From Candidatus Thorarchaeota archaeon (lineage in GTDB: Archaea > Asgardarchaeota > Thorarchaeia > Thorarchaeales > Thorarchaeaceae), in assembly GCA_016840855.1 (NCBI GenBank), contig JAEORO010000116.1, forward strand, positions 1-34,124: a stretch of DNA of 34,124 nt, read 5' to 3'. This document shows positions 6,880 through 33,200 of this stretch, in pieces (the stretch's first letter is position 1; each line of letters opens with the position of its first letter). Both the position numbers and the translations under genes were made by a program. The notes beneath the pieces are model-generated. The model saw nothing but the letters and a program-made list of their open reading frames with translations. It had not been told where the DNA came from and did not search any database.

Positions 6880-7731
6880 TCAAGCAGCTTTTGCTTCAGC
6901 CTTACCCTCAAGAATAGCTCTTCTAATTAGCTGAATTAATCTGTCACGATATGAAATATCAATGGCTACAAGTTCATAGGTTGGAATTCCAAGAATTTGC
7001 CCAACTCTTTCTGGAGTTAAGGCAGTTGGCAGATCTTGTTTGTTTGCTATACCGAGAACCTTAGCATCAGGAACCTCGTCTTTCACAAGAGTAACTAGCT
7101 TCTTACTCCTCAATACATTCTCCAGCGTACTGTCTGTAACTATTATCACAACTTGTGCGTTAGCAATCATCTTCGCCCAGAGGATGCTAAATCGCGATTG
7201 GCCTGCCAAATCCCACAGAACTATGTTTGCATTCTCAACCTCTTCGGGTAACTTCTTGATAGACACACCTATTGTTGGATCGTGAACAAGTGGAAGTGTT
7301 TCTCCTCGAAGAAGATGCAGAGTAGTGGTTTTTCCAACACCAGCAAAACCAAGAATTGCTACTTTCACCATTGTGACCGCAATCTCATCGACTTTCTCAT
7401 CGAATCCATCCAAAGGTTGATTCGCCGCAGCTAGGTTCGCATAATCCCGCATAAATGAATCAACCAGCTGACCCATTTTTTCTTCAATTTGAGTGGCATC
7501 ATCTGCTTTGTCAGCAACAAACATGAATGTGAAATCATCCTTCTTCGCGTAGAAGATTCGTGAAATTGCAGCATTCATGAACTCTGTTTTATTTTCAAGA
7601 TCGATATTCCTCAAGAAGTGCGTGAGGTTAACTAGAAATTCAACTAAATCTGCTTTAGATTCACTCTTGGCATAATCTTTGGAATAGAGCATATTTCCCT
7701 GTTCACCAAGAACATAGACACTTCTGATCAT
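6880..7731 (-). CDS. Arf-like small GTPase fused to an N-terminal longin-like domain
   Basis: GTPase motifs GFAGVGKTT (G1), PTIG (G2), WDLAGQ (G3), NKQDLP (G4). N-terminal MIRSVYVLGEQGNMLYSKDY...ISRIFYAKKDDFTFMFVAD resembles longin folds (AP sigma, SRX). Overlaps the upstream gene by ATGA. Confidence 0.88.
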   Translation of the reverse strand: MIRSVYVLGEQGNMLYSKDYAKSESKADLVEFLVNLTHFLRNIDLENKTEFMNAAISRIFYAKKDDFTFMFVADKADDATQIEEKMGQLVDSFMRDYANLAAANQPLDGFDEKVDEIAVTMVKVAILGFAGVGKTTTLHLLRGETLPLVHDPTIGVSIKKLPEEVENANIVLWDLAGQSRFSILWAKMIANAQVVIIVTDSTLENVLRSKKLVTLVKDEVPDAKVLGIANKQDLPTALTPERVGQILGIPTYELVAIDISYRDRLIQLIRRAILEGKAEAKAA

Positions 7732-8873
7732 GCTGGTTCACCACAATTTTCTATCAAGAGTTCAAGATGTCTGCGTGCAACTTGAGGTGTTATTTCTTTC
7801 TCTGATAACTTCTTTCTTATTATTGGCAGAACATATTCAGGAATGAATGATTCAATTCTTGGATTCGTGAGAAGCGCCCACACATCCTCTTCTTCGAAAT
7901 GCACAATAACTTTTTCTGATTCAAGTGTCCAGAGAACCTTTTTCACAATAGAAATAGGAAGTGCTGTCTTCAGCGATACATCGCTTGCGGAGAGTGGTTC
8001 AGCTCTTAATGAGTCGAGAACCATGTAATTTAGGCTGTCAGCAAGTAGTCGAGAAAGTTTCTCTCTATCTTCAAGAATGGGAGAGTTTGGTTCAGTTATA
8101 GGTAAGGTTGGATTATATCCCTTACCAGGTGGTGGAGGGGAGAAAAATGTAGAAACATATTCTCTGTATCTTTCTGCAATTTCCGGTATGGTATTACTAG
8201 CTTTCTTGATCGATTCTATTGGAGGTGCACGATATCCGAAGATATCCTTTACAAGAAACACCATCTCTGAAGCTTTTCCAACTAATTCTACTTTAACAAC
8301 ACCCGAATTCATTAGAGGCGTCATTGCCTCTCGCAGGTCCACTTCATCTTGAACCTGATTCTTAAGCCAAATCGAGAGTTTTGCGGCTTTCTCTACTCCT
8401 TCAGACTGCATGCGTTCAAGAATTAGTGCTGATGATGGAGTCACAAAAATGCTCGCGAGTTTCTGTTCTTCACTTGTCTTTTCTAAGATGCTTCCTGCTT
8501 TGACAATCTCCTCTAGGTTTACTAAATCGGCATCTTCATTCATTAGTGCAAGAATTAATCGTCCTGATCCTGCAAGACCATCACTTACTAAGTCGAAATC
8601 TTCATCGGCACCGAGGATTGTACAAACCATCCACTTTGGATATTCAGAGCTACCGAATATGGCTATTCTTAAGCCTTCAATCTCTGCTAAACTAAGATTA
8701 TCTCTATTCTCCTTCTGTTGCTCATAGAATATTAGATTCAGTACCTTCTCATTAAGGGTCAGTGTAGAAGGGTATCTTTGCTTAACAAGGAATCCTTGAA
8801 AGTCATCAAGATGAACCACAAATGTTGCTTCTGGCATATGCCGTCCCACTCTAAGGAGTTGCAGTATAGACAT
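7728..8873 (-). CDS. hypothetical protein, possible longin/roadblock-like N-terminus and C-terminal winged helix
   Basis: Long ORF translationally coupled (4-nt overlap) to the Arf-like GTPase. C-terminal LSASDVSLKTALPISIVKKVLWTLESEKVIVHFEEEDVWALL looks like wHTH. Confidence 0.8.
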   Translation of the reverse strand: MSILQLLRVGRHMPEATFVVHLDDFQGFLVKQRYPSTLTLNEKVLNLIFYEQQKENRDNLSLAEIEGLRIAIFGSSEYPKWMVCTILGADEDFDLVSDGLAGSGRLILALMNEDADLVNLEEIVKAGSILEKTSEEQKLASIFVTPSSALILERMQSEGVEKAAKLSIWLKNQVQDEVDLREAMTPLMNSGVVKVELVGKASEMVFLVKDIFGYRAPPIESIKKASNTIPEIAERYREYVSTFFSPPPPGKGYNPTLPITEPNSPILEDREKLSRLLADSLNYMVLDSLRAEPLSASDVSLKTALPISIVKKVLWTLESEKVIVHFEEEDVWALLTNPRIESFIPEYVLPIIRKKLSEKEITPQVARRHLELLIENCGEPA

Positions 8874-8918: not shown

Positions 8919-9305
8919 TCAATGAGATTCTCGGTCTTTCTCGAGATGTACAAGACATACAATGTCCCCATTTGGATTTAGAATCCAACATTTTTCACAG
9001 ACATTATGATTGCACTCAACACAAGTTCCTATTCGTTGATGAAAACTTCCGAGGTTATTCAATTCAGCACCAACACTATGTGTTTCACAATAACCAGTTC
9101 CACACTGAATACATGTGACCACCTGACTTTGCCCACAGATAGTGCATTTTTGATTTGTGTATCGTATAGCAATCTTTTTTCCATTATCAGACCCTGAACA
9201 TGATGGATTTCTACATTCCCCTACACCCTTGTATTCTCCACAGGATTGGCATACTGGAAGTAATAAAGGATCATCCCTTGTCATCTTGTTCACCTTGAAC
9301 ATCAT
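8919..9305 (-). CDS. cysteine-rich zinc-binding protein (cross-brace/treble-clef-like)
   Basis: 14 Cys in spaced CxxC pairs: CQSC, CRNPSC, CTIC, CIQC...CETH, CVEC, CEKC, CLVH. Confidence 0.75.
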   Translation of the reverse strand: MMFKVNKMTRDDPLLLPVCQSCGEYKGVGECRNPSCSGSDNGKKIAIRYTNQKCTICGQSQVVTCIQCGTGYCETHSVGAELNNLGSFHQRIGTCVECNHNVCEKCWILNPNGDIVCLVHLEKDRESH

Positions 9306-9366
9306 CGTTTAAGGAAGTAGCGCGCTTGAATATGCGATTGTCTCTCCATAAGAAAGTATGAAAAGC

Positions 9367-9392
9367 ATTCCTATGACTTGAACCATAGGAAT
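9367..9392. promoter_or_regulatory. perfect 9-bp inverted repeat ending 4 nt before the start of the EAP30 gene
   Basis: ATTCCTATG (9367-9375) acttgaac CATAGGAAT (9384-9392); ATG at 9397. AGGA (SD-like) lies in the 3' arm. Confidence 0.6.
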
Positions 9393-9396
9393 CACG

Positions 9397-11730
9397 ATGA
9401 ACCTTGACCTCTGGAATCTCATAGTACCCTCAACAGCTACGAGGAGACTTCAGTTAGCAGGCGGTCAACCTATGGAACAATCTGTGCCAGAGGATTATGT
9501 ATTAGCAGGCATGGTTCTTCGTGCTATTGAAAAACGTGATGGCCGTGAGTTCGAATTCATTCTGAAATGTTATCTACCAGTAGTTATCGCTGAATCACCC
9601 TTCCCAAATCGGAGCTTTCTTGTTGAACTACTCGGTCTAACTAGTGAAACAATAATCAGACATAAGGAATACAACACAACAGCAATTCTTGAGAAACTCA
9701 ATTCTAGTACTGAACTAGAGGCAATCTCAAGATGTGTTAAAGATGCTCGTGATTTGGTTGCCTCTTTGAGAACATCTGAACGGTCCGAGGTAATCGGCTT
9801 AATGAGTGGTTTAATGTCTCGTGGAATTGCACAGGTGCTCGAAAGACCTCTTCGTAATCAAGTTCAGGATTATGAGGTTATTCTTTCAGGTCTTCTAAAA
9901 CAAAAAGAATTCCAAAAATCAATAGATACTCTACAAGAGACTGCCATATCATTAAGTTCTGTTGAAGAATCTCTTTCCCATCTTGTCTATATGATAATCT
10001 CAAAGATTGAAACTACCGTAGAACGAAGCGAGGTGGAGTCTGAGCCAGTTCTTTCAAGATTGAATTTGAGAATTGAGTCATTGCAACGACAAATCGAGAA
10101 TCTAGAATCTGAGATAGTCAAGATAAAAGCATCAACTTCGGATACAAAACAGACTCGACTCGCAGAAGTAAAACAGGCAATAGCAGCAAGACGAGCTGCA
10201 TTTGACAGAGATACGGCTAGACGAAATGAAACTCTTTCTGATATTCAAGGAACATCTCGCTCTTTACTTATTGAACGAGATAATTTGAGTGCTGAGTTTC
10301 AGGCTGCAAATACCACTATCCATGATCAACTCGTTTCTATCATTGATATGTCAGTACCACTATCCCCCGTCAACACTGGAGAAAAAGGCGCACTTGTTTT
10401 ACTACCATTCTTCTTTGCTGGTTTCTCTAAAAAAGGGCAGTTGCAGATTGAGGTCTATCCTATCTCTCAACTGACTACAAATGGAGAGAAAGTAAGTCGC
10501 AGGCGTGATTTTGTTGATGGTTTCACAAGCCCTTCACGAGCTGTGGATGCAATAACCTCCATACTAAGTGAAAGAGCAAATAATGATGTAGCATTAAGAA
10601 AATTCATTCGCGAATCATCTCAAAACTTCAATCTTTTAGCTGTTAAAGAATCAAGAAACCTTATTCTTGAGGGGGCTGAATCCCTAAAGGGCGATGGACT
10701 TGTGAAACAGCCGCTTGTCAATGAATTACAGGCTATTCTTTCAGGAACTCCTGAATTGAAAATTAAGCCACGCATGAAACGTCGTGTGACGCCACTAGTA
10801 ACAGAAGCGGAACTTTGTCGAATACATTTTCATATTCAAAACGAAGCTGGGCGTCCTATTGAGGGAGCTGAGCTTGAGCTAGGTGCGCTCTCTGCAAAAT
10901 CTGACAATAAAGGAGTCATTGTGGTTTCCATACCGATGAGTAACTATGAAGGAGTTGTCCGTGCTCCAGGATATTTCGATAAATCAGTGGAATTTGCACT
11001 TACCTCAAAGAGCGATGCTGCAATTCCAATAATGCTTAATTCACTCTCACACGAAGACCAGCTCTCAGCACGATTGGATGAGCTTGTTGATAGATCGCGT
11101 CGTCTTGATATGATTCGAGATCGATTATGGAGTGCCTTCGAAACTCAAGGAAGTACCTTGTTGAGTATTCCTGCGTATCGATCTGCACTCTTTGAGCTTC
11201 TTGCTGAATTAGGATACGAACCCGAATCATGGATTGCTGAAGCGAAGAAGCAAAAAGGAATGGTGAAACGACTTCTTAAGAGAGATAATAGAACCGATGG
11301 ACTTCGCCGTGATATTTTAAAAATGGCTGAGGAATCTAAAACGTTTGGAGGAATCATGCTTTTCTCAGAACTCCTTGTTCGATTAGATACTGCTGGCTGG
11401 GCGACTCATGCTGACGAGATTGAGCGCATCATTGAAGATATGACAAAGGAGGGCTTAATTCAAGGTCTCTCATCTATCGAGGGAGGTGCGCTTCTAGTCG
11501 AGTTTGTTCCTGTCGCATTAACTCATGATCCACAAGAGATACTTAGCCTTGCTGCAACTCATGATGGACGTCTTAGTATAGAAGATGTTGTTGTAGGACT
11601 TGGTTGGACTGAAGAACGAGTAAGAAATGCTCTTGAGCTTCTTGTTAAGAATGGTGTAGCTAAGGAACAACGAAGTTATTCAAAAAGCACACAATATTGG
11701 TTCCCTGGACTGAGAGGGGGAAAGAAATAA
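9397..11730 (+). CDS. EAP30-domain protein (ESCRT-II Vps22/SNF8-like) with long coiled-coil N-terminal extension
   Basis: C-terminal GGIMLFSELLVRL...LVEFVPVALTHDPQEILSLAATHDGRLSIEDVVVGLGWTEERVRNALELLVKNGVAKEQ...YWFPGL closely parallels human SNF8 GGLITLEELHQQVL...LIQSVPAELNMDHTVVLQLAEKNGYVTVSEIKASLKWETERARQVLEHLLKEGLAW...YWLPALF (recalled from memory). Central coiled coil LNLRIESLQRQIENLESEIVKIK. Confidence 0.85.
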   Translation: MNLDLWNLIVPSTATRRLQLAGGQPMEQSVPEDYVLAGMVLRAIEKRDGREFEFILKCYLPVVIAESPFPNRSFLVELLGLTSETIIRHKEYNTTAILEKLNSSTELEAISRCVKDARDLVASLRTSERSEVIGLMSGLMSRGIAQVLERPLRNQVQDYEVILSGLLKQKEFQKSIDTLQETAISLSSVEESLSHLVYMIISKIETTVERSEVESEPVLSRLNLRIESLQRQIENLESEIVKIKASTSDTKQTRLAEVKQAIAARRAAFDRDTARRNETLSDIQGTSRSLLIERDNLSAEFQAANTTIHDQLVSIIDMSVPLSPVNTGEKGALVLLPFFFAGFSKKGQLQIEVYPISQLTTNGEKVSRRRDFVDGFTSPSRAVDAITSILSERANNDVALRKFIRESSQNFNLLAVKESRNLILEGAESLKGDGLVKQPLVNELQAILSGTPELKIKPRMKRRVTPLVTEAELCRIHFHIQNEAGRPIEGAELELGALSAKSDNKGVIVVSIPMSNYEGVVRAPGYFDKSVEFALTSKSDAAIPIMLNSLSHEDQLSARLDELVDRSRRLDMIRDRLWSAFETQGSTLLSIPAYRSALFELLAELGYEPESWIAEAKKQKGMVKRLLKRDNRTDGLRRDILKMAEESKTFGGIMLFSELLVRLDTAGWATHADEIERIIEDMTKEGLIQGLSSIEGGALLVEFVPVALTHDPQEILSLAATHDGRLSIEDVVVGLGWTEERVRNALELLVKNGVAKEQRSYSKSTQYWFPGLRGGKK

Positions 11731-11775: not shown

Positions 11776-12549
11776 ATGAATCGCGTTTCTCATATTGTAT
11801 TTGCTTTTGCTCTCTTTGTAGGTTTGTACTCCTTAATCTTCTCCTTTAGTGTCTGGCTCTCTGACATAGGCACCCTTAGTGAACTTCTAGAATATTATGT
11901 CATTGGTGGGATTCTAACCAGCATTATCTGTGTACCAATTCTTTACTACAAAGCACCTAACAAAGATATGAAAGCAAGAACATCGAGCAATAGAGGCGCT
12001 GTAGGTGCAATGTTCTTTGTCACATTTTGTATAGGTTCCTTGATTGGTTCGATTGTTTTCCAATGGCTCACAGGTGTGGCAATTATTGGAAACATCTCCA
12101 TCTTTATTGGTGCAATTATTACAGTTGCCGGTGCTCTAATGCCTGATTGGGATATACCATTCCTTGGAATTTCACGACATCGGAACATTATCTTTCACTC
12201 TATCGTTTTACCGATTTTTGCGGTGCTTGCAACATTATTGAATGTGGCTAGTAGAACTGGTACAATACTTGCTGCTGGAGCTGAGATTGAGTACTATATA
12301 ACAGCGCTTTTCCTTCTTGGGTATGCTTCTCATCTCTATCTTGACATCTTCCCAAGTGACGCAAATCCACTTGAAATACTATGGATTGCTTCAGATATTG
12401 ACCATAAAGCACCCACAGGCTTGAAACCATTAGGGCCTATAAAGATAAACCAAAAACATGCTCGTAGTTGGTTAGTTCTAAATGCTACAATGCTAGTGAT
12501 AATAGCTGCTATGCTCTTTGGTTGGTACTTCTTTAACCTCGGAACCTGA
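11776..12549 (+). CDS. YdjM/DUF457-like membrane-bound metal-dependent hydrolase
   Basis: Several TM segments; motifs MPDWDIP, SRHRNIIFHS, GYASHLYLDIFPSDANPLE typical of the family. Confidence 0.8.
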   Translation: MNRVSHIVFAFALFVGLYSLIFSFSVWLSDIGTLSELLEYYVIGGILTSIICVPILYYKAPNKDMKARTSSNRGAVGAMFFVTFCIGSLIGSIVFQWLTGVAIIGNISIFIGAIITVAGALMPDWDIPFLGISRHRNIIFHSIVLPIFAVLATLLNVASRTGTILAAGAEIEYYITALFLLGYASHLYLDIFPSDANPLEILWIASDIDHKAPTGLKPLGPIKINQKHARSWLVLNATMLVIIAAMLFGWYFFNLGT

Positions 12550-16138: not shown

Positions 16139-17566
16139 ATGAGTTTGGTTACATCGATGAGAGCCTCCACATCACCAGCAAAACTATTGATTGTGATACT
16201 AATTGTATCCTTTCTTTCTGTTCCCTCAGTTCGAACTTTTTCTGATGTTGTATTAGTACACAACTCAACTACTGCTAGCGAAGAGCCTCTAAGTATCATT
16301 CTAATGATTGGTGATGGAATGGGTTCTGAGCACGTGGAACTGGCACGTCTTGTTGAGGTTGGTGAATTTGGGTCTTTGAATATGCAAGATTCTGATTGGA
16401 ATGCATCTGCGACTACTCATTCTGCAAATGCTGCTGTTACGGATTCTGCAGCTGCAGCCACTGCAATTGCAACTGGAAGTAAAACAAATAATGGATACGT
16501 AGCGGTAAGTCCTTCACTGGTGGACCTTGAAACAATTTTAGAATATGCTCAAACGCTAAACAAGTCCACTGGGGTAGTATCCACTAGCACTATAGCTCAT
16601 GCAACGCCAGCTAGCTTTATGACTCATGTTAATGATCGAAATGACGACACTGAAATTGTTCGTCAAATTGTAGAGGAGGCTGGTGTAGATGTATTACTTG
16701 GGGGTGGAAGTGGTTTGTTCACTGGTGCCCAAATCGCTTCAATGGCTTCCAATGGTTACTCAATTGTATATAATAGAACTGAGTTATCCACTGTGATTTC
16801 AGGAAAAGTTCTTGGACTCTTTGCAGCTTCTCATTTGGTTTATGAATATGATCGAGATTTTGCAATTCAACCATCTATTTCGGAGATGACAAACAAATCA
16901 ATTGAGCTACTCTCACAGGATCCTGATGGTTTCTTCCTTATGGTCGAAGGAAGTCAAATCGATTTTGCAGCTCATAATAAAGACAAAGTTAGGAATGCAC
17001 TCGAAACCATCGCTTTCGATGACGCTGTAGATGTTGCTATGGATTATGTAAAAGACCACAATAATACAATACTCATCGTAACTGCTGACCATGAAACAGG
17101 AGGATTAGTAGTTCTGAGTCACAATTTAAGCTCTGAACTTCCTGAAATTCTTCTTTCAGAGGAGGACAAACGAACTCTTCGAGCTGAACGTGTAAATAAT
17201 GTGACTGTCGATTGGACTACAACCTCTCACACTGATGCACATGTGCCCTTCTTTGCAACTGGTGATGCTTTCTTGAATATGCCTGAAGACCTCACTATCG
17301 ATAACACAGACATATACGATCTCATGAAGGACTTCTATTTAGGTAATCCACTCAACGAAACAGAACTCACTACTACCACAACTACCACAACTGAATCAAC
17401 AACGACAACAACCAGCGGGACTGAAACAACAACGGATACTACCTCTACAACAGAACCTACAGGTGGACCCAATGTCCCACTTGACTCATATCTGGTACTA
17501 GCAATATCAATAGCATCTGTCATAGTGATCTTGGTTGTACTCATGCAGATTAAACGGCGGCAATAA
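16139..17566 (+). CDS. secreted, membrane-anchored alkaline phosphatase (PhoA-like)
   Basis: Signal/TM, IILMIGDGMG, TDSAAAATAIATG, LGGGSGLF, TADHETGGL, TSHTDAHVPFF; Thr-rich linker and C-terminal TM SYLVLAISIASVIVILVVLM. Confidence 0.92.
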   Translation: MSLVTSMRASTSPAKLLIVILIVSFLSVPSVRTFSDVVLVHNSTTASEEPLSIILMIGDGMGSEHVELARLVEVGEFGSLNMQDSDWNASATTHSANAAVTDSAAAATAIATGSKTNNGYVAVSPSLVDLETILEYAQTLNKSTGVVSTSTIAHATPASFMTHVNDRNDDTEIVRQIVEEAGVDVLLGGGSGLFTGAQIASMASNGYSIVYNRTELSTVISGKVLGLFAASHLVYEYDRDFAIQPSISEMTNKSIELLSQDPDGFFLMVEGSQIDFAAHNKDKVRNALETIAFDDAVDVAMDYVKDHNNTILIVTADHETGGLVVLSHNLSSELPEILLSEEDKRTLRAERVNNVTVDWTTTSHTDAHVPFFATGDAFLNMPEDLTIDNTDIYDLMKDFYLGNPLNETELTTTTTTTTESTTTTTSGTETTTDTTSTTEPTGGPNVPLDSYLVLAISIASVIVILVVLMQIKRRQ

Positions 17567-21283: not shown

Positions 21284-24200
21284 TCAGTCTTCTATTCCAA
21301 GACTCTTGATGAGTTCATCAACTAGCTCACGTGGTAAACGACTAGCTTGCTCAATAATCATATCGATTTCATGCAGGGGTACTCCTTTTTTGAGCAGATC
21401 TGCTTTGAGTTCCTGAAGCTCGAACTGAGAGAGTTTCTCGCCTAGTTGTTTTTCTTCAACCTCTGGTGTTTCGATTGTAACTTCTGGTTCCTTAGCCTCT
21501 TCCTCTACCAAGAATATCCGATCCTCAGGTGCTTCTTTTTCAGCTTCTGAAATCTCTTCAACTTCTTCTGGAGCAGAAACCCTTCTAGATGCTTCAATAG
21601 CTACTTCTTCAAGAATCTCTTCGACAGTCTTTCCTCTTGAACGAGCAGCACGGATTGCCTCTTGCATGATAACTTCTTTCACGAAGGCAGCTTGCTCACT
21701 CATCTTCATCTTAGATATATCAGCGTTGAATTCATCCAACTCCTCAGGACTCAAATTAGTCAATATCGATAGTTGGATGAGGAGTTCTCTGATCTCAGGA
21801 ATTTCAATTGGTACTGAAGCCTCTGGCATGTCAGTTGACACTCTTGTGATCGCGAGCTTCTGGAATGTATCATTAAATAGGTCAGCAACTAGTTGTTGTC
21901 TAGTCTTGCTATCTGTAATTGGCTTTGGAATCTTTCCTTTTTGAAGTGCTTTGATTTGACTATTTATTTGTCTCAACCGTTTTGGAATGCTGAAGTATCT
22001 TGTCCAAAGAACCCCAATCAAAAACACTAGGAACAATAGAGGAGTTGCATAAGATATCACTGTTCCCATTGTTTTTTGTTCCTCAGTAGGTATTATTGTT
22101 ACGCTTAGCTCAAGTTCTTTCTGTTCATAATTGTCAAGGCTAAGAGTTATTGTTAGGTCAACATACTGGGTATCGATACCAACAGGAACGAGTGGAGCAT
22201 CGACTCGAATGGTGAGAACATATACGCCGGGGTCTGTTGTTGATCTGTTGGATACAATCTGAACAAGGGCTCTTTCACTTGTCACTGTGAACTTCGCGTT
22301 CGTAATACCTTCACCCGGGACATTCAGCCAGCTCTCATAGTAATAGACATAGACATCAATTGTTTCTCCGTAGTACATTGATATCGTACCATCAATGATA
22401 TTATCCGAACTGAATTCGAGCACAGTTGGACGTTCGATGACTGTGATTGTAATCGGAATGTCGCTATGTGACTGTCTATTTCGCAGATCTACACTTATCC
22501 TTATGAAGAATGGACTATTGGGTAGAGCTCGAGGTACACCAGGTTGCAACTCAAATAGCTCATCTGCAGTTGAATCAAATACAAAATAGTATGTTCCATT
22601 TCCGAAGTCCATGGCATCAAAAGTGATACTTGATACTATTCCTCCGCCATATACTATCACAGTGACTGCTGCTTCCACAAGACCTCCAACATATCCATCT
22701 GAGTCATCTGTATCGTTATAGAAGAAACTAATTAAAATTGCATCACCAAATGGTATTTCCAAATCGTCTGTATGATTGTCTATTTGGTTGTCAGTTGGTG
22801 TGGATAGGGTCAACTCAGTCGGTACTTCTTCAATAATGAGAGAAATAGAGCCAGTACTGACCTGATAGTTTAGCTTATCAAAATCGATAGTGACTGGATA
22901 TCTGATACCTGTTTCCAAGTATGTTGTGTTGATTAGGATTGAATAATACCCATTCCCAAGGTCAATTGCATCACCACTAAAGGGTCCCCATTGGTATTGT
23001 GCTGTTGCATTGTTTATTCCTTTATCAAAATCGATGTCGTGATAATAGAATGTGAGGTTCCCAATCCAGCCCCAGTAAATCACACTTGGAATTGGACTTA
23101 CTACTTCTGTCTTGATTTTTCGTATTGTAATGGCAAGATCAACATAATCCTCTGCCAAGTTACTATCATCAGGTATGCCATGGAATGTCACTCCCCAAGT
23201 TCCAAAAGCCATTTTTGATGTATTAAAAGTGAGTTCCCATAGACCTGATATTGGATTGAAGGTAAAGGTTTCATTGATTTCAAATGCGGAATCAATCCAT
23301 TCAATTGTGGCATTATTAATAGTCAATCCAGATTCACTTTCAGTGAAATTCAGGTAGAATGTAGTCATGTTATTGTAGACTGCATCCATTCTAGTCATCG
23401 TGGGGGTTACAAGATAAATCGTTGTGGAAGTTGCTTGAAGATCCATTTTGAAGACTGCGCTAGCTGGATCATAATTGGTAGCTGATGCTATTACCCTAGC
23501 TGAGTAGATTATGCCTGGTTGCAAAGTAGCAGTTGCATCTGGCAGCAGGGTTGTGTACCATGTGTAATCAGTTGAGTTTTGAATAAGATCATATCTCTTA
23601 CCTAGAAACATCAAATAGACCTCCGATATTCCAGACTCAATCATGATTCCACCATTATACTCATCAGTCAGGTAGACAACAACATCAATAGGATCACCTC
23701 TTGGATGTTCAAATGCTAATTCTGGAGAGTCGATTACTAATTCACTCGGCAAAGAAAGAACAATGAGAGTGAAAGTTGTGGCCGCAATCTTGTATTTGTC
23801 TTTCTCAGCACGCACTTGAACAACTCGAGTACCTGAATCCTGAAGCGAAGTGTCGATGTATGCTTCATATGTTCCAGCTGGGATAATTTCAGAGAAATTA
23901 CCAGAAAATGGACCATAGGTCCAAGTTACAATAGCTCCCGATGTACTATTGAGGTTGAGAAGATCTCTGTAATCAACAACGATGCGTACTTGTTCGGTCC
24001 AATTAAGTGCTATTTCGGATTCTCCTATTGGTACTAAACTGGTTGAGATTCTCTCAACGGTGAATGATGGATTAACAGACATTGTTGTATAGGGGTAATA
24101 ATCGATGGTAATATTCAAGGAGTGACTACCAAATTCATTGAGATCCCCAGTACTGAACTCTATTGAATAAACACCCAACCCTAGATATTGGATAGTCATA

Positions 24201-27200
24201 GGACTGGGAACTATACTTGTTCCGTAGTAGTGGACTTCAAACACACTAATTGGTAGGTTGACTCCCTGGTCATGGTCAAGATCTGTTAGTGTCACTTCCA
24301 CTGTAACGTTACCAGTAATCTGGACTGACGAAGGCGTCGGCACTCCCGCTTGCATATTTGACCATATGAGGTCGACTCCACCGTTTAATTTAATGGGTGA
24401 CCTATTCTTGTAGTATGGCGCATTAGCTTGATTCCACTGCACCTCGAGTTCGAACACGAAGTTACCAATATCACTTGGTCCAAAAACAAGTGCATTGGTA
24501 TCAATTGATATGGTGTATTTGCCTGGTAGACTCTCAATGAGTGTATACTCGCTTCCTTCACTCAATATCCTTACTGGATTCACACAACGAAATATGATGA
24601 TGGCACCAGAAACTGGATTATCGTTATCTTCATCAGTCAAGAAGAAGGTGATATTCATTCGGTCTTTAACTGGCGTTGTTTCAATCTGTTGCGGTTCGAC
24701 AAGGATTATTCGCTGTGTTGTGGATACTTTCATAGAAGTTCCATCATCTGTGTAGAAGGGGGATGTAGTAACAGGCCAATTTACAAAGACTGTGATGTTG
24801 AAATCTTTGACCAATTTAGTAGATAGAACTGTTGAGTTAATTGACACAATAAATATTGAACCAACTGGTGTCAAGACATACTGATTTGAAGCCAGAAGTG
24901 TTCCATTTGAATAGATTAAGACATAGTTCGATGCGATGCCTGAGATCTGAAGTCCACTAATTGCATCAACATAAGCAAAAGTGAAGGTCATATTGTCTAG
25001 ATATCTTGGTTGATTTGCAGGCTCTAATATGTCAACGGACGCAGTCCTTTCTATTGATTTCACTGACACGAGCCTTTGTGCATTATTATGATACGGAGCT
25101 CCTCCAGGCCAGACTGCAGTCACATTAATACTATGGGTACCCAGTGAACCAAGAGCTGACGAATCAATGTAGATTGTATAAACTCCTGGCTCATCTTCGA
25201 CAACGAAGAAATTAACATCCAAAGTTAGCACTCCCGAATTGAGAATGAAGTCCGCACCTGATATCCCAGCTGTGACATCAGCATCCCAATAATAGACCAC
25301 GAAGCTTGCATTTTCACCAAATGGTGCTGGTATTGCAGCTTCTTGAAGATCAAGAGCTGAAGTTCTTGTCCTTATAGTGAAATGAACATAGACATCATCC
25401 CACCTATAGAACGGGTCCACATATGCATAGCTCATATTGAGCCAGAGGGCATGATCTCCCAAGGTAAGAGTTGTCTGTCCGATAGTTGTGATGACAACCA
25501 GATAATCACTGGTCGCTGGTCGCCATGTGATAGTGTAAACCCATGGAGTTCCCGTGTCATTCAGAATACTGAATGATGTAAAGGTATCATCGATATTAGC
25601 CAGCGTCAATATGTCTTGGTATGCCAGTGTGATGTCAATCTGAGTTTCATAACCAACTTGGCCTACTGGATTTGCTGAGAGAATTGTTGTTCTAAATCTC
25701 ACATTGAGTGTCCGAACTGCTGAAGCATCATTCCTGAAGTATCCACCAGTATATACTATACTTACATTGAGGTTGTAAAATCCTGGCACTGAGAAATATC
25801 CTGTGTCGAGTGAAATCTCGAAGTTGCCAAGACCGTCTGGTGTAAGAGTATAATATGCTCCTGGAATCTGGACTCCAAGATAGTAGATTGAGAGAGTGGC
25901 ATCAGGAATGCCCACCTCTGTGACACCACTAATGTCTATGTATGAAACATCGAAGGTAACAAAATCACCATATGGTGTTGGAGCTGGAGCATCGAAATTG
26001 ACTTGTGTCTGTCTCATTGTGATAGTGAAGTAGACAAGCTGAAGCGTTTTGTTCGCATAATATGGCGATCCTGCCCACGTCACATTGATGTAAAATATGG
26101 CAAGCCCAACATCACCAAACTGTGCTGTATTGAAAGACATTGTGAAGATATGGGATGCTACATCATAACTCAAAGACGGGCTTTCAGTGAGGTTGGTTAA
26201 AATCGACATCTCACTTGAAAAGACTACGAGGACCTCCGGTAGTGTCGTTGAGTCAACAAAGGAGAATGTGAAGGTTGCATTTTCACCATAAGGAGTATTC
26301 AAAGGTCTATCTACTGAAACATATGTGCTCCTCGCAATTGTAGTAGCTTTCGTTGATGATGAGTCATCTTTATAGTAATTTGGACTATCTGGCCAATCAA
26401 TTTGAACAGAAATGATTCTGTTCTTGACTAGTCCATCGCTCAAGACAGTAGAACTAATACTAATCTCATATGTATAGCCTGCACCAATTTGAGTCATCGA
26501 AAATTCAGAAGGATTAAGCATGATTAGGTCATTATAGATTGTCACCAAGTCTTTCGTCGCTTGGAGTTCTTGTCCAGTTTCAATATCAATGAAAGAAACC
26601 GTAAAAGACACATTTTCCAAGTAGGGTGTCTGAACTGGAGGTGTGATTACCTCGACATTGGTCGGTCTTCGGGTGACTGAAAGGTCGATATCAATATCCG
26701 CATCATCATGGAATGGAGCTCCTCCTATCCATTCGACTTGAACTGTAACAGTAGTTACACCAATTCCATCTAGCGCTGTTGTTTGTACAATTACTTCAAA
26801 GACTCCTCCACCAACATGAGAGTAGAAATAATCTGTTCCATAGACCAAAGGTGTAACGCCTTTAAGAATGAATATATTGGCACTTGTAATTGGTGACAGG
26901 TCATCTGCATCACTATAATACACTGTGAAGGAAACATTGTTCAAATATGGTGTTGGAACCGGAGCTTCCTGTCGCTCTAATGACGATGCGCGGCTTCTGA
27001 TTTCGAACGTAATATACGCATCATCAAATTTGTAGAAAGGCGTTGAAAAGGCATAGCTCATATTGATGTGGAGGGAATAGACTGAACCTATAGCAAGTGA
27101 GAGCTGGTTTGAAGTTTCTACTGTCAATTCGTAGTATCCCATTGAAGGGTTCCAATCAATAACATAGATCCAGCTGGAACCATTCAGGATCTCGAATGCT

Positions 27201-30200
27201 ACAAGCGATGAATCCTTTCCAATAATATCTAGAGTAGTGTTATCCTGATAGTATAGGATGGTAGTAATTGGTGAGGAATATGGTACAGAGGTGACCGGCT
27301 CAGACGATGTTATTGTTGACCTGTACCTGATTGTGAATGAACGGGTGTCTACTCTGCTCACATAGTAGAATTGTGTTGAAGTTATATTGACAATAATATT
27401 GTATGTTCCAGGATTTGTTTTGTAAGTGGTATTGAGCACAACATTGTATGCTCCTGAACCAATCTCATAGACTGTATAATAGACAGATGGGAGTAGTGAT
27501 GCTCCATCGTATAGTGTGATAGTAGCCCCTTCTATCCCTGCTGCTGTTTCTGCGACATCGGTCCAAGTGACACTGAATGTGACATTGTCAAGATACTGTG
27601 TGGGAGATGGTGTCTGATAATCCAAGACTGTCTGACGTGCTATGACTCTTACTGAAATAGCACGACCTGTTTGATTTGCATAGAAGGGAGTTCCTTCCCA
27701 TCTAACATCCAAGGTGAAACCTTGTGTTCCAAGTGCGCCAAATTGGGAAGTATCAAATGAAACAGTGAAGGTCTTGGTAGGATCATAATATGTGATGGAG
27801 TAGTCACTCAGACTGATAGTAATAGTAAGTTTGGCATCATTTGCAATCGGTACATTGAGCGCCCCTGTCACATCATCAAAAGTAAATGAAAATGTGGCAT
27901 TCACACCATATGCAGTCTGAATTGGAGGACTAATTGAAACCAAGGTGTCACGTGGGAGTATCCTAACTGAGATTGTGTCTGTTCTATTGCTATAGAATGG
28001 TTCCACTCCCTTAGCCCAGTTGATATAGACCTTCATGTAGATTAATCCAGTCTTTCCAAACAAGTCCGTGTTGAATCTGATAGAGTATTTTCCACGGTCT
28101 GTAACTGGGTTGACTTCCCAAATCTCGACCTGGTTGAGATCTACGGTTTCTCCTACGAATTCAACAAAAATATACACATGACCTGTTATGTTGGCTATTC
28201 CCGTACCATTAACAGCTGAGTAGAACAAAGTGTATGTCATGTTCTCGAGGTATGGTGTTGGCTCTGCGGTCACAACAAGTGTAAGTCTAGAATCTTCACC
28301 GAGGATGTTGGCTGCTGCGAACAGGTAGCTATCCTTGTACGTACTAACTGGTCCCGTCCAGTTGAAATAAATCGTGAAGTTCTGAAGTCCTAATCCGCCA
28401 AACTGCTGTGCTGGAACAATTATTGTGTAATATCCTGGTTGCCCAGTGACATTGAATAGGTAGGATATGACATTGACTGTCCCATTCCATACTCTGTGGC
28501 TAACATATTGAGACGCAATTCCTTCACCACTATCAATGTCGCCAAAGAATAGCGATATACTGATGTTGCTAGTGTAACTAACTGGTTCAATGGCACTGAC
28601 CAATCTAAAATCTGTATTATGAGTTCTAATTGTGATGGAGATGTTGAATAGACCAAATTGATAGTTTTCACCTTTACTAAAGTTGAATGAAACAACAAAG
28701 TTCTGACGAAGTTCATCATCATCAAATGTGATGAAAGTTACTCGATATCTCTCCTGAGCTGGTATGTATGTGATTGTCACTGAATGAATCCAAGTTGATG
28801 CAGCTAAGAATGGTGCTTCATCTGTTACTGGTAAATCATGATCGATGTCCCAGTACTCAACGTAAAATACAGGATCATCGCCAACTGGAATGTCCAAAGC
28901 GCCAACAGAAGGTATAGCGTAGGTGAAGGCTATACGAATCACCACTTTGAAGGAAATTGTCTGAGGTTCATACCCTACCTGATCTGCGGTAAGTTGGTAC
29001 AGATGTTCACCTTTTGCTAGACCACTTACATCAACCGTGACCTGATAGACGCCACTTCCAAGGTTTTGTTGATTATAGATTGTTATTCCTATTGCAGTGA
29101 TAATTGCGCCTTCTATACCTTGGTTTCTATCAATATCTAAGAAGGTCAAGGTAACGTCAAAATCGGTGTTGTATGGTGTCACTGCAGCTCTATCTGGCGA
29201 TGACAGTTCACTCCTTGCAGGTCTGTACTCGAAGATGAGAATCATGTGCGACTCCGCATATCGATTGTCAGCTGGAGTGACAGTAATGAAGATCGTATAG
29301 TCTCCTTCAGGGAAGTAGGAAGCATCGATTGTGATGTTATATCGTCCATTCGTCAGATCATGGAATTCTTTGATAGGAATAATGTGAGTAGTGTTCGCGA
29401 TTGAGAATTCTCCTTGAAGCAAACCTGTGATTGGATCTCCATATAGACTGCCTTGCTCACTTACATTCACTGTCACAATAACTTGGAAGTCATCTCCTGT
29501 CGGATACCGATAGTCTCCTGGTTCATTGATTATGTGAGTGGTTACTGACCTAATTGTAATTGTGAATACATAGTCTACTGGATCTTCATAGTTGCCTGTC
29601 ATTACTAGGGATAGTGTCACTGATACATCCTCAACTAACCAAGTACTCGTACCCAAACTATATAGCAAATCTGAAGGACTAGATTCCCCTTCAGAACCGT
29701 AGCTTGAGCTGAAGCTGAAGCTAGAAACATCAGTTGCACTAAGCGTAATTCCAGAATCTAGGTCAGTTATCACAATTGTGAGTTGTGTAAGGTTACCATA
29801 TGGTGTTTCCAAATTCCCTTTGATTGTGACAGAAGTATAGTGGTTTCTAATTTCAATATCAAAGACATAGTTAGAGGGATTATAGAAGTTTCCAGTCATC
29901 ACCACCGAGAGGGTGACTGTTTCAGTTCCAACCGCCCAAGTGCTTGTATCCAACACCACAATCAAATCTGTAGGGTTGGTTTCTTGAGTGTCCCCATAAC
30001 TTGCTGGATTGAGGATGAACCCAGACACATCGGATGCAGTCAGAGTATCTCCTGTATCGCTATCTCTAATTACTATCGTAAGAGTGGTCATCTCTCCATA
30101 TGGCGTAATCAAGTCACCAATCACTGTGACTGACGTGTAGTGATTACGAATCTGGATGTTGAACTGGTAGTTGTCAGGATTATTATAGTTCCCATTCATC

Positions 30201-33200
30201 ACCACCGAGAGGGTAACTGTTTCGGTTCCTACAGCCCACGCGCTTGTATCCAAGTCAACGATGAGGTCTGTTGGGCTCGACTCAGGATGGTCTGAGTAGC
30301 TTGCTGGATTAAGGAGGAAACTTGACACATCAGACGCGGAAAGAGAATCGCCAGTGTCTGTGTCGCGAATGATAATAGTTAGTTGCGTAGATTGACCATA
30401 GGGTGTGATGAAGTCACCGACCACAGTGACAGATGTATAGTGATTCCTAATTTGGATATCAAATTGGTAGTTGGTAGGATTGTTGTAGTTCCCACTCATC
30501 ACCACTGAGAGGGTGACTGTTTCTGTAGCAACGCTCCATAAACTAGTATCAAGTATGAAATCAAGATCACTTGGACTTGGATCGCTCTGCGAGCCATAGG
30601 TACTTGGTGTGAAAGTGAAACTTGAAACCGATGTGGATGTTAATGTCAATCCTGTATCCAAGTCAGTAATAACAAGAGTAAGAGGTGTTGATTGACCATA
30701 GGGTGTGATTAAGTCACCAATCACAGTGACTGACGTGTAGTGATTGCGAATCTGGATGTCAAACTGGTAGTTGACTGGATTATTGTAATTTCCACTCATT
30801 ACCACTGAGAGGGTAACTGTTTCAGTTCCTACAGCCCACGCGCTTGTATCCAAGTCAACGATGAGGTCTGTTGGGCTCGACTCAGGATGGTCTGAGTAGC
30901 TTGCTGGATTAAGGAGGAAACTCGACACATCAGATGCACTGAGCATAGTATCTGTATCTGTGTCAACAATTACTATTGTTAGAAACGTAGTAGTTCCATA
31001 GGGACTAATTAAATCTCCAATTACAGTGACAGATGTATAGTGGTTTCTAATTTGAATGTCAAACAGGTAGTTTAGTGGATTATGGTAAATTCCACTCATC
31101 GAAACCGAAAGTGTCACAGGTTCTGTCCCAACATCCCATCCACCAGTTGTAAGTGATACAGCAAAATCAGTTGGATTTGTTTCACTTATTGGGGAGTAGC
31201 TTGAAGTAAAGCTCCATGAATTAACATTGCTTGTAGTTGCTAATGCTAGTCCTGTGTCTGTGTCAACTATGATGACAGTCACAGGAGTTGGGTCACCATA
31301 TGGTGTAACTAGGTCGCTGACGACTGAAACTGATGTAAAGTGTTTTCGAAGTGTGAAAGTTATCGTGACAGTACTCTCTTCTAAATAGGAGCCTGCTTTA
31401 GTAGCTTTGAAAACAAATACATGATCTCCATAGCTTAGTCCTCCAGTGTTCAACGAGATATTATATCGTCCTGCTCCTTCTGCAACGACATTTACAAGGG
31501 TACCATTCTCAAATGCGATGGTTGCACCTGTTATTGGTACTCCATTATAGCTATCTTCGAAGATCAATGTCGCCGTAAAGTCAAAACCTACTGGTGTGGT
31601 ATCTACATCGGTGAAATCAAGTTCTGTTGTATGATACAATTCCAAGTCGAAGTAATCTGTTGCATTATTGTAGTATTGATGATATGAGTTGATGTTGATT
31701 CTATACTTTCCAGCAACATCTAAATCAGAAGTGTTGACTGATTTTCCATACCTGCCATTTCCTATATCGTTGAGAGTTAATTCAGTTGGCGTACCAGATA
31801 CTGACCAATTCATCTTGACAACAGCGCCTGCTATCTTGTTTGAATTTGCATCATCAGTCAGTTCCATCTCAATGTACAGGATCTCTCCAGCTACACCATA
31901 AGCTGTCTTGTCACCTACAGCATCTGCTGGATTGATAATTGTGAGCGAACTATCATGTTTTACTATGAAGTTTCTTTCAAAGAGTCCTGTCCCGTAAGAA
32001 ACTGTGCTTCCGGTGTCATTATAGTATACGGATGCTGTCCAAAGTCCTGCGGGAGCGGTAGAATCAATTATCTTTGATAATGTATGTTGAGGTGAAGTTC
32101 TTGACTCCTCTGTTCCTCTACCAATAAATGCGCCAATGTTAGCAACATTATCATACTCGACAGCGTACCATCCTACAGCTCTTGGGGTAGTAGCAATCCT
32201 CAACTCATCAACTCTACCAGTATGGAATGCCTGCGCAGTTGGAAATTCAGAGGTGTCAACATACCCACCACCAATTCCCCAGTTTCCATTAAAAGCCATA
32301 TTTATTGATGCCGCGCCTCCTGAAGAACCTGCATCAGTATTATCTGCGCCATTGATGTATATCTTGTTGTTTGATGGTGTATCTGCATCCATCACACAGG
32401 CGAAGTGATACCAACCAGCCGCCCAACTTACTCGAGTTGTCCATTTCACCCATTCTTGACCATTGATTTCAAATCCAAAAACTAGACCTCCTGCTGAAGT
32501 AAAACCCGTTTCAGTATAGTCTGACCCTGTTAACGCAATGTGGAAGTTGTAATCTCCATCAAGATATTTTGCTGCAAGTACTCTTGAGGGTGATGATGTA
32601 GCACTCCAAGTGCTAGCAATATAGAACCAACCAGAGATTGTGACATCACCTGTTGGATTAAGATTTTGAGTAGAATTGATTTCTATCCAATCATTTCCAT
32701 CAAAATTCTGACCATATCCATTTACAATGCCAGTTGTTCGGGAGTTACCAAACTGGTTTCCGATATATCCGTTAGATGTTGAGTCGAAGTGAAGCCCACT
32801 TGAACCTTCATCTGTCACATCCTCATTAAGCAGCCAGACTGCCTCATACCCATCTGACCAGAGTGTTTCTGGAGATTCAGTTGACCCAATAACCGGGTTT
32901 CCATAATATAGCAAAAGTGTATTGTCGACAGAGCTAGAAAGATTTGCTTGGACCCATGCTACTAATCTACCTGTGCTTTGATCGAATCGATCAATCTCAT
33001 GTGCCAAAACTTTACCATTTTGAACAAAGACAAAGTCATCCCCGTCAGCTTGTACCTTTGTTTGAAAATCAGTATCTGCAAAACTAACCAATAATGGGAA
33101 GTTTGAAACAGTATAATCAACTTGCGCTGCAGGTATTGTGAGTTGCATGCGATAGGCAAATGATGGAATGTCCCATGTTGTTCCAGGAACTCCTGTTGTT

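Follow-up and report, generated by a model that had tools for sequence, protein, structure and literature searches.

In eukaryotic ESCRT-II, whose Vps22/SNF8 subunit consists of a helical hairpin followed by tandem winged helices (WH1 and WH2), WH2 is the part that contacts Vps25. Vps36 (GLUE plus EAP30) places an N-terminal targeting module before the hairpin and tandem winged helices. The canonical Asgard Vps22 (cog.002769; Makarova 2024; Hatano 2022) is usually encoded in an ESCRT cluster. According to the main text of Hatano 2022, each Asgard genome has one Vps22/36-like gene, and Thorarchaeia lack ubiquitin (PMC9192718). Asgard genomes also encode EAP30/winged-helix-type copies with extra domains outside the standard set, such as cog.002441 (SB, zinc ribbons, two wH), and Eme 2023 described a fusion specific to Thorarchaeia, Vps5-BAR with Vps28 (PMC10307638). 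Here we report another ESCRT-type fusion from this lineage. Neither the main text of Hatano 2022 (PMC9192718) nor the section on ESCRT diversity in Makarova 2024 (PMC10936438) describes its architecture; the protein may already be listed in their supplements as an unlabelled COG.

The protein, T777, is encoded in a 34,124-nt stretch of thorarchaeal DNA (hereafter the window). A preliminary description of this DNA had proposed a 777-residue open reading frame with a Vps22/SNF8-like C-terminal part and a coiled coil in an unrecognised N-terminal half. The frame indeed begins with ATG and contains zero internal stops, and its features are as follows.

9397–11730, forward strand: T777, a Vps22-type fusion protein of 777 aa (open reading frame, family conservation, SNF8 profile match, AF2 model and Foldseek)
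9397–9900, forward strand: first half of an alpha/beta unit, residues 1–168 (AF2, pLDDT mostly 75–93)
9901–10350, forward strand: antiparallel coiled-coil hairpin, residues 169–318 (AF2 and coiled-coil database matches)
10351–10773, forward strand: second half of the alpha/beta unit, residues 319–459 (AF2)
10816–11034, forward strand: transthyretin/CarboxypepD_reg-like beta-sandwich, residues 474–546 (Pfam, Foldseek)
11050–11712, forward strand: Vps22/SNF8-type EAP30 domain (profiles, AF2, Foldseek)

As modelled, the domain order is thus an N-terminal alpha/beta unit, a coiled coil, a beta-sandwich and a Vps22-type EAP30 domain. The AF2 model, built from 26 relatives, had a mean pLDDT of 83.3 and a pTM of 0.55. 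In it, the alpha/beta unit (residues 1–168 plus 319–450) was modelled confidently and is interrupted by the long coiled-coil hairpin, which confirms the proposed coiled coil and consists of helices 169–244 and 251–318. G134 and P151 are invariant in the family alignment of the first half of the unit; the second half comprises strands at 332–359 and helices at 381–450. Residues 460–471 are disordered in the model. Pfam CarboxypepD_reg matched 15 of the 26 family members (best 3e-9), and Foldseek matched the sandwich to 9hfj, 6hif_Y and 5aq0. The description of the N-terminal half as unrecognised therefore stands for the alpha/beta unit, which had no counterpart among the Pfam and PDB matches listed, and fails for residues 474–546, a separate sandwich that had gone unnoticed. 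The EAP30 domain divides into a helical hairpin (552–628), WH1 (629–706) and WH2 (707–772). Mean column identity in the family was 75% for this domain and 49% for the N-terminal half (residues 1–470). A hydropathy scan of T777 revealed no transmembrane segment, so the protein is probably cytoplasmic. An assembly chimera was ruled out, since the full-length architecture was found again in independent genomes; relatives with 75–79% protein identity have been published as 'Candidatus Thorarchaeota archaeon' MAGs.

Homology to Vps22/SNF8 had been claimed over nearly the full length of SNF8 on the basis of an alignment (IPAYRSALFELLAELGYEPESW to NPEFRVQFQDMCATIGVDPLAS; YWFPGL to YWLPAL), and HMMER reproduced that alignment. 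Searched alone, T777 scored 21.9 bits against Pfam EAP30 (residues 592–754), below the gathering cut-off of 26.8. The family matched EAP30 and SNF8 significantly: EAP30 was found in 24 of 26 members (best E = 1.2e-9), and the family profile searched against the PDB retrieved human SNF8 at E = 1.9e-12, aligning T777 residues 561–772 with SNF8 7–215, almost all of the solved chain; yeast Vps22 followed at 5e-4. A profile of the C-terminal domain alone improved these values to 9.4e-16 for SNF8 and 2.6e-8 for yeast Vps22. Vps36 was found in the PDB by neither profile, and PDB entries for TAL-effector, apolipoprotein and viral coiled-coil proteins were set aside as low-complexity or helical chance matches.

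Structural comparison gave the same order. Foldseek with the T777 model ranked 3cuq_A, 2zme_A and 1u5t_A (SNF8, SNF8 and yeast Vps22) first to third in the PDB, with Vps36 after the Vps22 chains, and both AF2 and Foldseek placed tandem winged helices after a helical hairpin in T777. The rigid TM-score against the Vps22 chains was only about 0.3, so the modelled packing of hairpin, WH1 and WH2 is not to be trusted; the low score may reflect domain packing that differs in T777 or is mis-modelled. WH2 is the best-kept part: 30 of its 66 residues agree with the Asgard Vps22 consensus and 21 of 66 with SNF8, and the terminal Y-W/Y-FPGL motif is retained. T777 and the eukaryotic Vps22/SNF8 chains (3CUQ and 2ZME, chain A; 1U5T, chain A) align end to end over hairpin and tandem winged helices, although identity is low, T777 has about 550 additional N-terminal residues and its assembly into an ESCRT-II complex is putative.

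The preliminary description had further suggested that T777 may be a paralogue of Vps22 type, encoded away from the ESCRT cluster and perhaps having another job. No ESCRT genes were present within the window, in line with the reported absence of partners. The source genome comprises 259 contigs, with T777 on contig C53 and a canonical ESCRT cluster on contig C19. The cluster encodes ESCRT-III (Snf7, 8.9e-10 in Pfam), Vps4 (AAA, MIT and Vps4_C domains), Vps25 (ESCRT-II, 7.1e-16; the sole Vps25 match found in the genome), a 255-aa Vps22 that scores 52.3 bits against EAP30, a Ras-type GTPase and a 526-aa protein that resembles the published Znr/PH/coiled-coil/SB type. T777 is thus not the sole, already described Vps22/36 of its genome: a separate Vps22 sits in the cluster, and T777 belongs to a distinct conserved clade. 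T777 may do a job different from that of canonical Vps22. A third EAP30 match, on contig C236, falls within the C-terminal portion of a frame for an MCM-type helicase, and we discarded it as a generic winged-helix match. A Pfam search for Vps28 matched nothing in this genome; as its control matched nothing either, we draw no conclusion about Vps28 from it.

The two Vps22-type proteins share a domain family and a genome and differ at the N-terminus. The profile of the thorarchaeal cluster Vps22 family covers only the winged helices of SNF8 (67–217, E = 1.9e-18), whereas the T777 profile also aligns the SNF8 hairpin region. This retained hairpin, which was not seen in the cluster Vps22, together with an overall plan like that of Vps36, in which an N-terminal module precedes the EAP30 domain, could mean that T777 heterodimerises with the cluster Vps22 as the Vps36-like half of thorarchaeal ESCRT-II. 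We regard this pairing as unlikely: the T777 profile finds SNF8 and not Vps36, neither a GLUE/PH domain nor an NZF or other zinc finger was matched in T777 by Pfam or among the Foldseek matches listed, and several thorarchaeal genomes have the cluster Vps22 without T777. Moreover, thorarchaeal Vps22 self-associates in the yeast two-hybrid assays presented in the main text of Hatano 2022 (PMC9192718).

We then surveyed the family across genomes. A search with the N-terminal profile found T777 in 35 of the 47 genomes of the Thorarchaeota family, and none of the 181 other genomes of the phylum that were searched contained a full-length copy. Some well-assembled thorarchaeal genomes lack it (G019, G024, G025, G027 and G035), so T777 is dispensable. 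Because two genera (g5 and g10) each hold genomes with and without T777, nested losses are likely; in loci without T777, the YdjM-like gene that otherwise follows it faces the NPRL2-like and GTPase genes described below directly or almost so.

Phylogenetic analysis of Asgard EAP30 domains placed those of T777 in a single, distinct clade (support 100/96 to 100/100) on a long stem of 1.0–1.6 changes per site, a length consistent with a changed function. The placement of this clade among Asgard Vps22s shifts with sampling, and the trees give it no fixed sister group. It and the thorarchaeal cluster Vps22 do not group in the best trees, although a joint clade was not rejected (AU p = 0.11); a recent duplication within Thorarchaeia is accordingly neither supported nor rejected. 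A grouping of T777 and the second EAP30 proteins from other Asgard lineages, supported at 94/92 and 84/80, dissolved with denser sampling and is not claimed here. Proteins such as cog.002441 have different N-terminal domains, and putative relatives of this kind in the trees did not group reliably with T777. Many other Asgard genomes in our sample contain at least two EAP30-type genes, so the rule of one Vps22 per genome stated in the main text of Hatano 2022 (PMC9192718) does not hold generally here. Eight second copies (L199, L201 and L203–L208, from families f15, f17, f18 and f22) form a separate clade (100/100), and their profile matches SNF8 (1.7e-12) and, weakly, Vps36 (1e-3).

The N-terminal arm has relatives of its own. 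Our search for them covered Asgard archaea and recovered stand-alone proteins of about 540–600 aa in other Asgard families (L097–L112, for example L102:5845–7467), which match the arm and contain no EAP30 domain; Pfam gave no domain of clear meaning in them. Several genomes of family f2 (probably Lokiarchaeia) have matches to T777 residues 377–450, the best at E = 8e-9; residues 48–367 or 85–432 were matched in L098 and L097. Judged from sequence, these matches are probably homologous to the T777 arm, whereas several weaker ones that rest mostly on the coiled coil are weak evidence and were not counted as homology. Since proteins without EAP30 match parts of the arm, T777 looks like one of these proteins fused to a sandwich and a Vps22 domain.

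T777 lies beside a conserved set of genes, whose positions in the window are given here.

6880–7731, reverse strand: 283-aa GTPase, a longin-Arf fusion (Arf in Pfam at 1.6e-19; Clat_adaptor_s weakly at residues 1–99)
7728–8873, reverse strand: P381, an NPRL2-like protein with longin and winged-helix parts (AF2 pLDDT 84.8, Foldseek)
8919–9305, reverse strand: B-box/RING-like zinc-binding protein, 128 aa, between P381 and T777 (weak Pfam ANCHR-like_BBOX, 4.8e-4)
11776–12549, forward strand: YdjM-like membrane protein, 45 bp 3' of T777 (Pfam YdjM, 1.4e-8; hydrophobic segments)

The GTPase gene is a conserved neighbour of T777, and family-wide the G domain of its product is almost invariant, with a mean column identity of 84%. 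The P381 stop codon overlaps the GTPase start at an ATGA (7731–7728). Foldseek with P381 returned chains from GATOR1/SEA on top (8fw5_C at 7e-4, 9v0j_A, 9o5d_D and 8adl_S), which we take from complex and chain length to be NPRL2/Npr2; further matches were BLOC-3, Fuzzy–Inturned, zeta-COP and AP sigma. P381 resembles NPRL2 in having winged helices behind a longin fold (seen in the AF2 secondary structure and by Foldseek, at modest E-values such as 7e-4), although TM-scores to NPRL2-type structures were low, about 0.2, sequence comparison gave no match to NPRL2 and any GAP activity on a Rag/Arf-type GTPase is hypothetical. NPRL2-like longin domains have already been listed in Asgard archaea (PMC9834061), and longin–GTPase fusions are also known (PMC10933270). 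Gene order is suggestive of a candidate GTPase/regulator pair, which would give one GTPase a named candidate regulator; in the Asgard genome studied by Tran et al. 2024, such pairing was reported to be hard to infer from how the genes are arranged (PMC10933270).

In 30 of the 30 T777 genomes with the flank on the contig, P381 adjoins T777 divergently, across a gap of 170–705 bp. The 128-aa zinc-binding protein gene is kept in at least 14 syntenic loci, and the YdjM-like gene is retained also in loci without T777. GluRS and several other neighbours are, however, as syntenic as the GTPase and P381 genes, and the syntenic block may be kept for reasons other than a link between T777 and the GTPase. 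Adjacency alone therefore says little, synteny does not serve as proof of joint function, and the functional link between T777 and the GTPase is putative. The pair also occurs without T777, in five thorarchaeal genomes and, as adjacent genes, in several other Asgard families (L141, L142, L144 and L147). In other Asgard genomes, the P381 homologues at L145 and L149 (G170 and G040) have very large neighbouring genes (1288–1584 aa) in tandem arrays.

Two further frames in the window were recorded. One, of 4241 aa (21284–34009, reverse strand), went unmatched in Pfam at E ≤ 0.001; a hydrophobic segment lies near residue 4021, and the product is possibly a giant surface protein. The other (16139–17566, forward strand) encodes an alkaline-phosphatase family protein with a hydrophobic segment at its C-terminus.

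This gene neighbourhood bears on the possibility that T777 descends from Vps22 and now works outside ESCRT, as a GTPase effector or tether whose winged helices would bind NPRL2-like/longin partners instead of Vps25, while the coiled coil and sandwich would bridge membranes or cargo. Such a role is possible, if on the doubtful side. It would fit the location of T777 with the longin-Arf GTPase and NPRL2-like genes and away from ESCRT genes, the long stem of its EAP30 clade and the presence of a canonical Vps22 in the same genome. Against it, WH2 and the terminal motif are still Vps22-like and strongly conserved, the GTPase/P381 pair persists where T777 is missing, both in Thorarchaeia and in other Asgard families, and no domain specific for GTPase binding was recognised in T777.

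Upstream of T777, two short elements were found.

9351–9366, forward strand: 16-bp conserved element AGAAAGKRTGAAAAGS (aligned upstream regions)
9368–9391, forward strand: inverted repeat TTCCTATG-N8-CATAGGAA, immediately upstream of the T777 start (sole copy in window and genome)

The element AGAAAGKRTGAAAAGS lies about 31–46 bp before the T777 start in 24 aligned upstream regions, a few of which carry one or two mismatches; it has a single exact copy in the genome and is absent from five loci without T777. A seven-codon frame of the window begins within it and stops ahead of T777. The ATG of this frame is in frame with T777 in several relatives and out of frame in others, so we treated AGAAAGKRTGAAAAGS as a candidate cis element and the T777 start codon as provisional. 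The inverted repeat is conserved only in close relatives, within the genus. A conserved element in front of the T777 gene, together with weak matches of its winged helices to the transcription-factor models DUF7343 and TrmB, could be taken to indicate a DNA- or RNA-binding protein with no membrane role. We consider this very improbable, because the order of hairpin, WH1 and WH2 follows SNF8 and because SNF8/Vps22 are the best matches by both sequence and fold.

Taking these observations together, our favoured reading, held tentatively and somewhat short of an even chance, is that T777 is a second, lineage-specific Vps22-type scaffold subunit of ESCRT-II, whose arm would pick the site and which would recruit Vps25 and ESCRT-III. 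The C-terminal domain would still pair with Vps25, for which WH2 and the terminal Y-W/Y-FPGL segment could provide the docking surface, by analogy with eukaryotic ESCRT-II and the findings of Hatano 2022, and Vps25-bound T777 would then nucleate ESCRT-III; both contacts are predicted. The N-terminal arm might take over the targeting role of the Vps36 GLUE domain and select the site; less probably, the longin-Arf GTPase and the NPRL2-like protein, both encoded divergently from T777, might switch this recruitment.

In favour of an ESCRT-II role, the SNF8 match covers the whole domain, hairpin included; the EAP30 domain is more conserved than the N-terminal half, with WH2 best kept of all; the same genome provides ESCRT-III, Vps4, one Vps25 and Vps22; and T777 stands divergently beside the NPRL2-like and GTPase genes at every readable locus. 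We also counted for it the two-hybrid links between ESCRT-II and ESCRT-III presented, with the self-association of thorarchaeal Vps22, in the main text of Hatano 2022 (PMC9192718). Its position outside the ESCRT cluster, the occurrence of the GTPase/P381 pair without T777 inside and outside Thorarchaeia, the long EAP30 stem and the well-assembled genomes that lack T777 argue against this role. A further reading, in which an Arf-like longin GTPase together with an NPRL2-like regulator would gate recruitment of the Vps22-type scaffold and so tie Arf/longin signalling to ESCRT in archaea reported to lack ubiquitin (PMC9192718), strikes us as rather unlikely on present evidence.

This thorarchaeon is a relative of the ancestors of complex cells, and Vps22 is an adaptor of the membrane-cutting machinery. 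A second conserved, fused Vps22 in Thorarchaeia suggests a second ESCRT-type pathway in these archaea and indicates that, inside the archaea, duplicated subunits of ESCRT-II type acquired new N-terminal modules. If T777 recruits ESCRT-III through a ubiquitin-independent arm or an Arf-like GTPase, the steering of ESCRT before eukaryotes would become directly testable.
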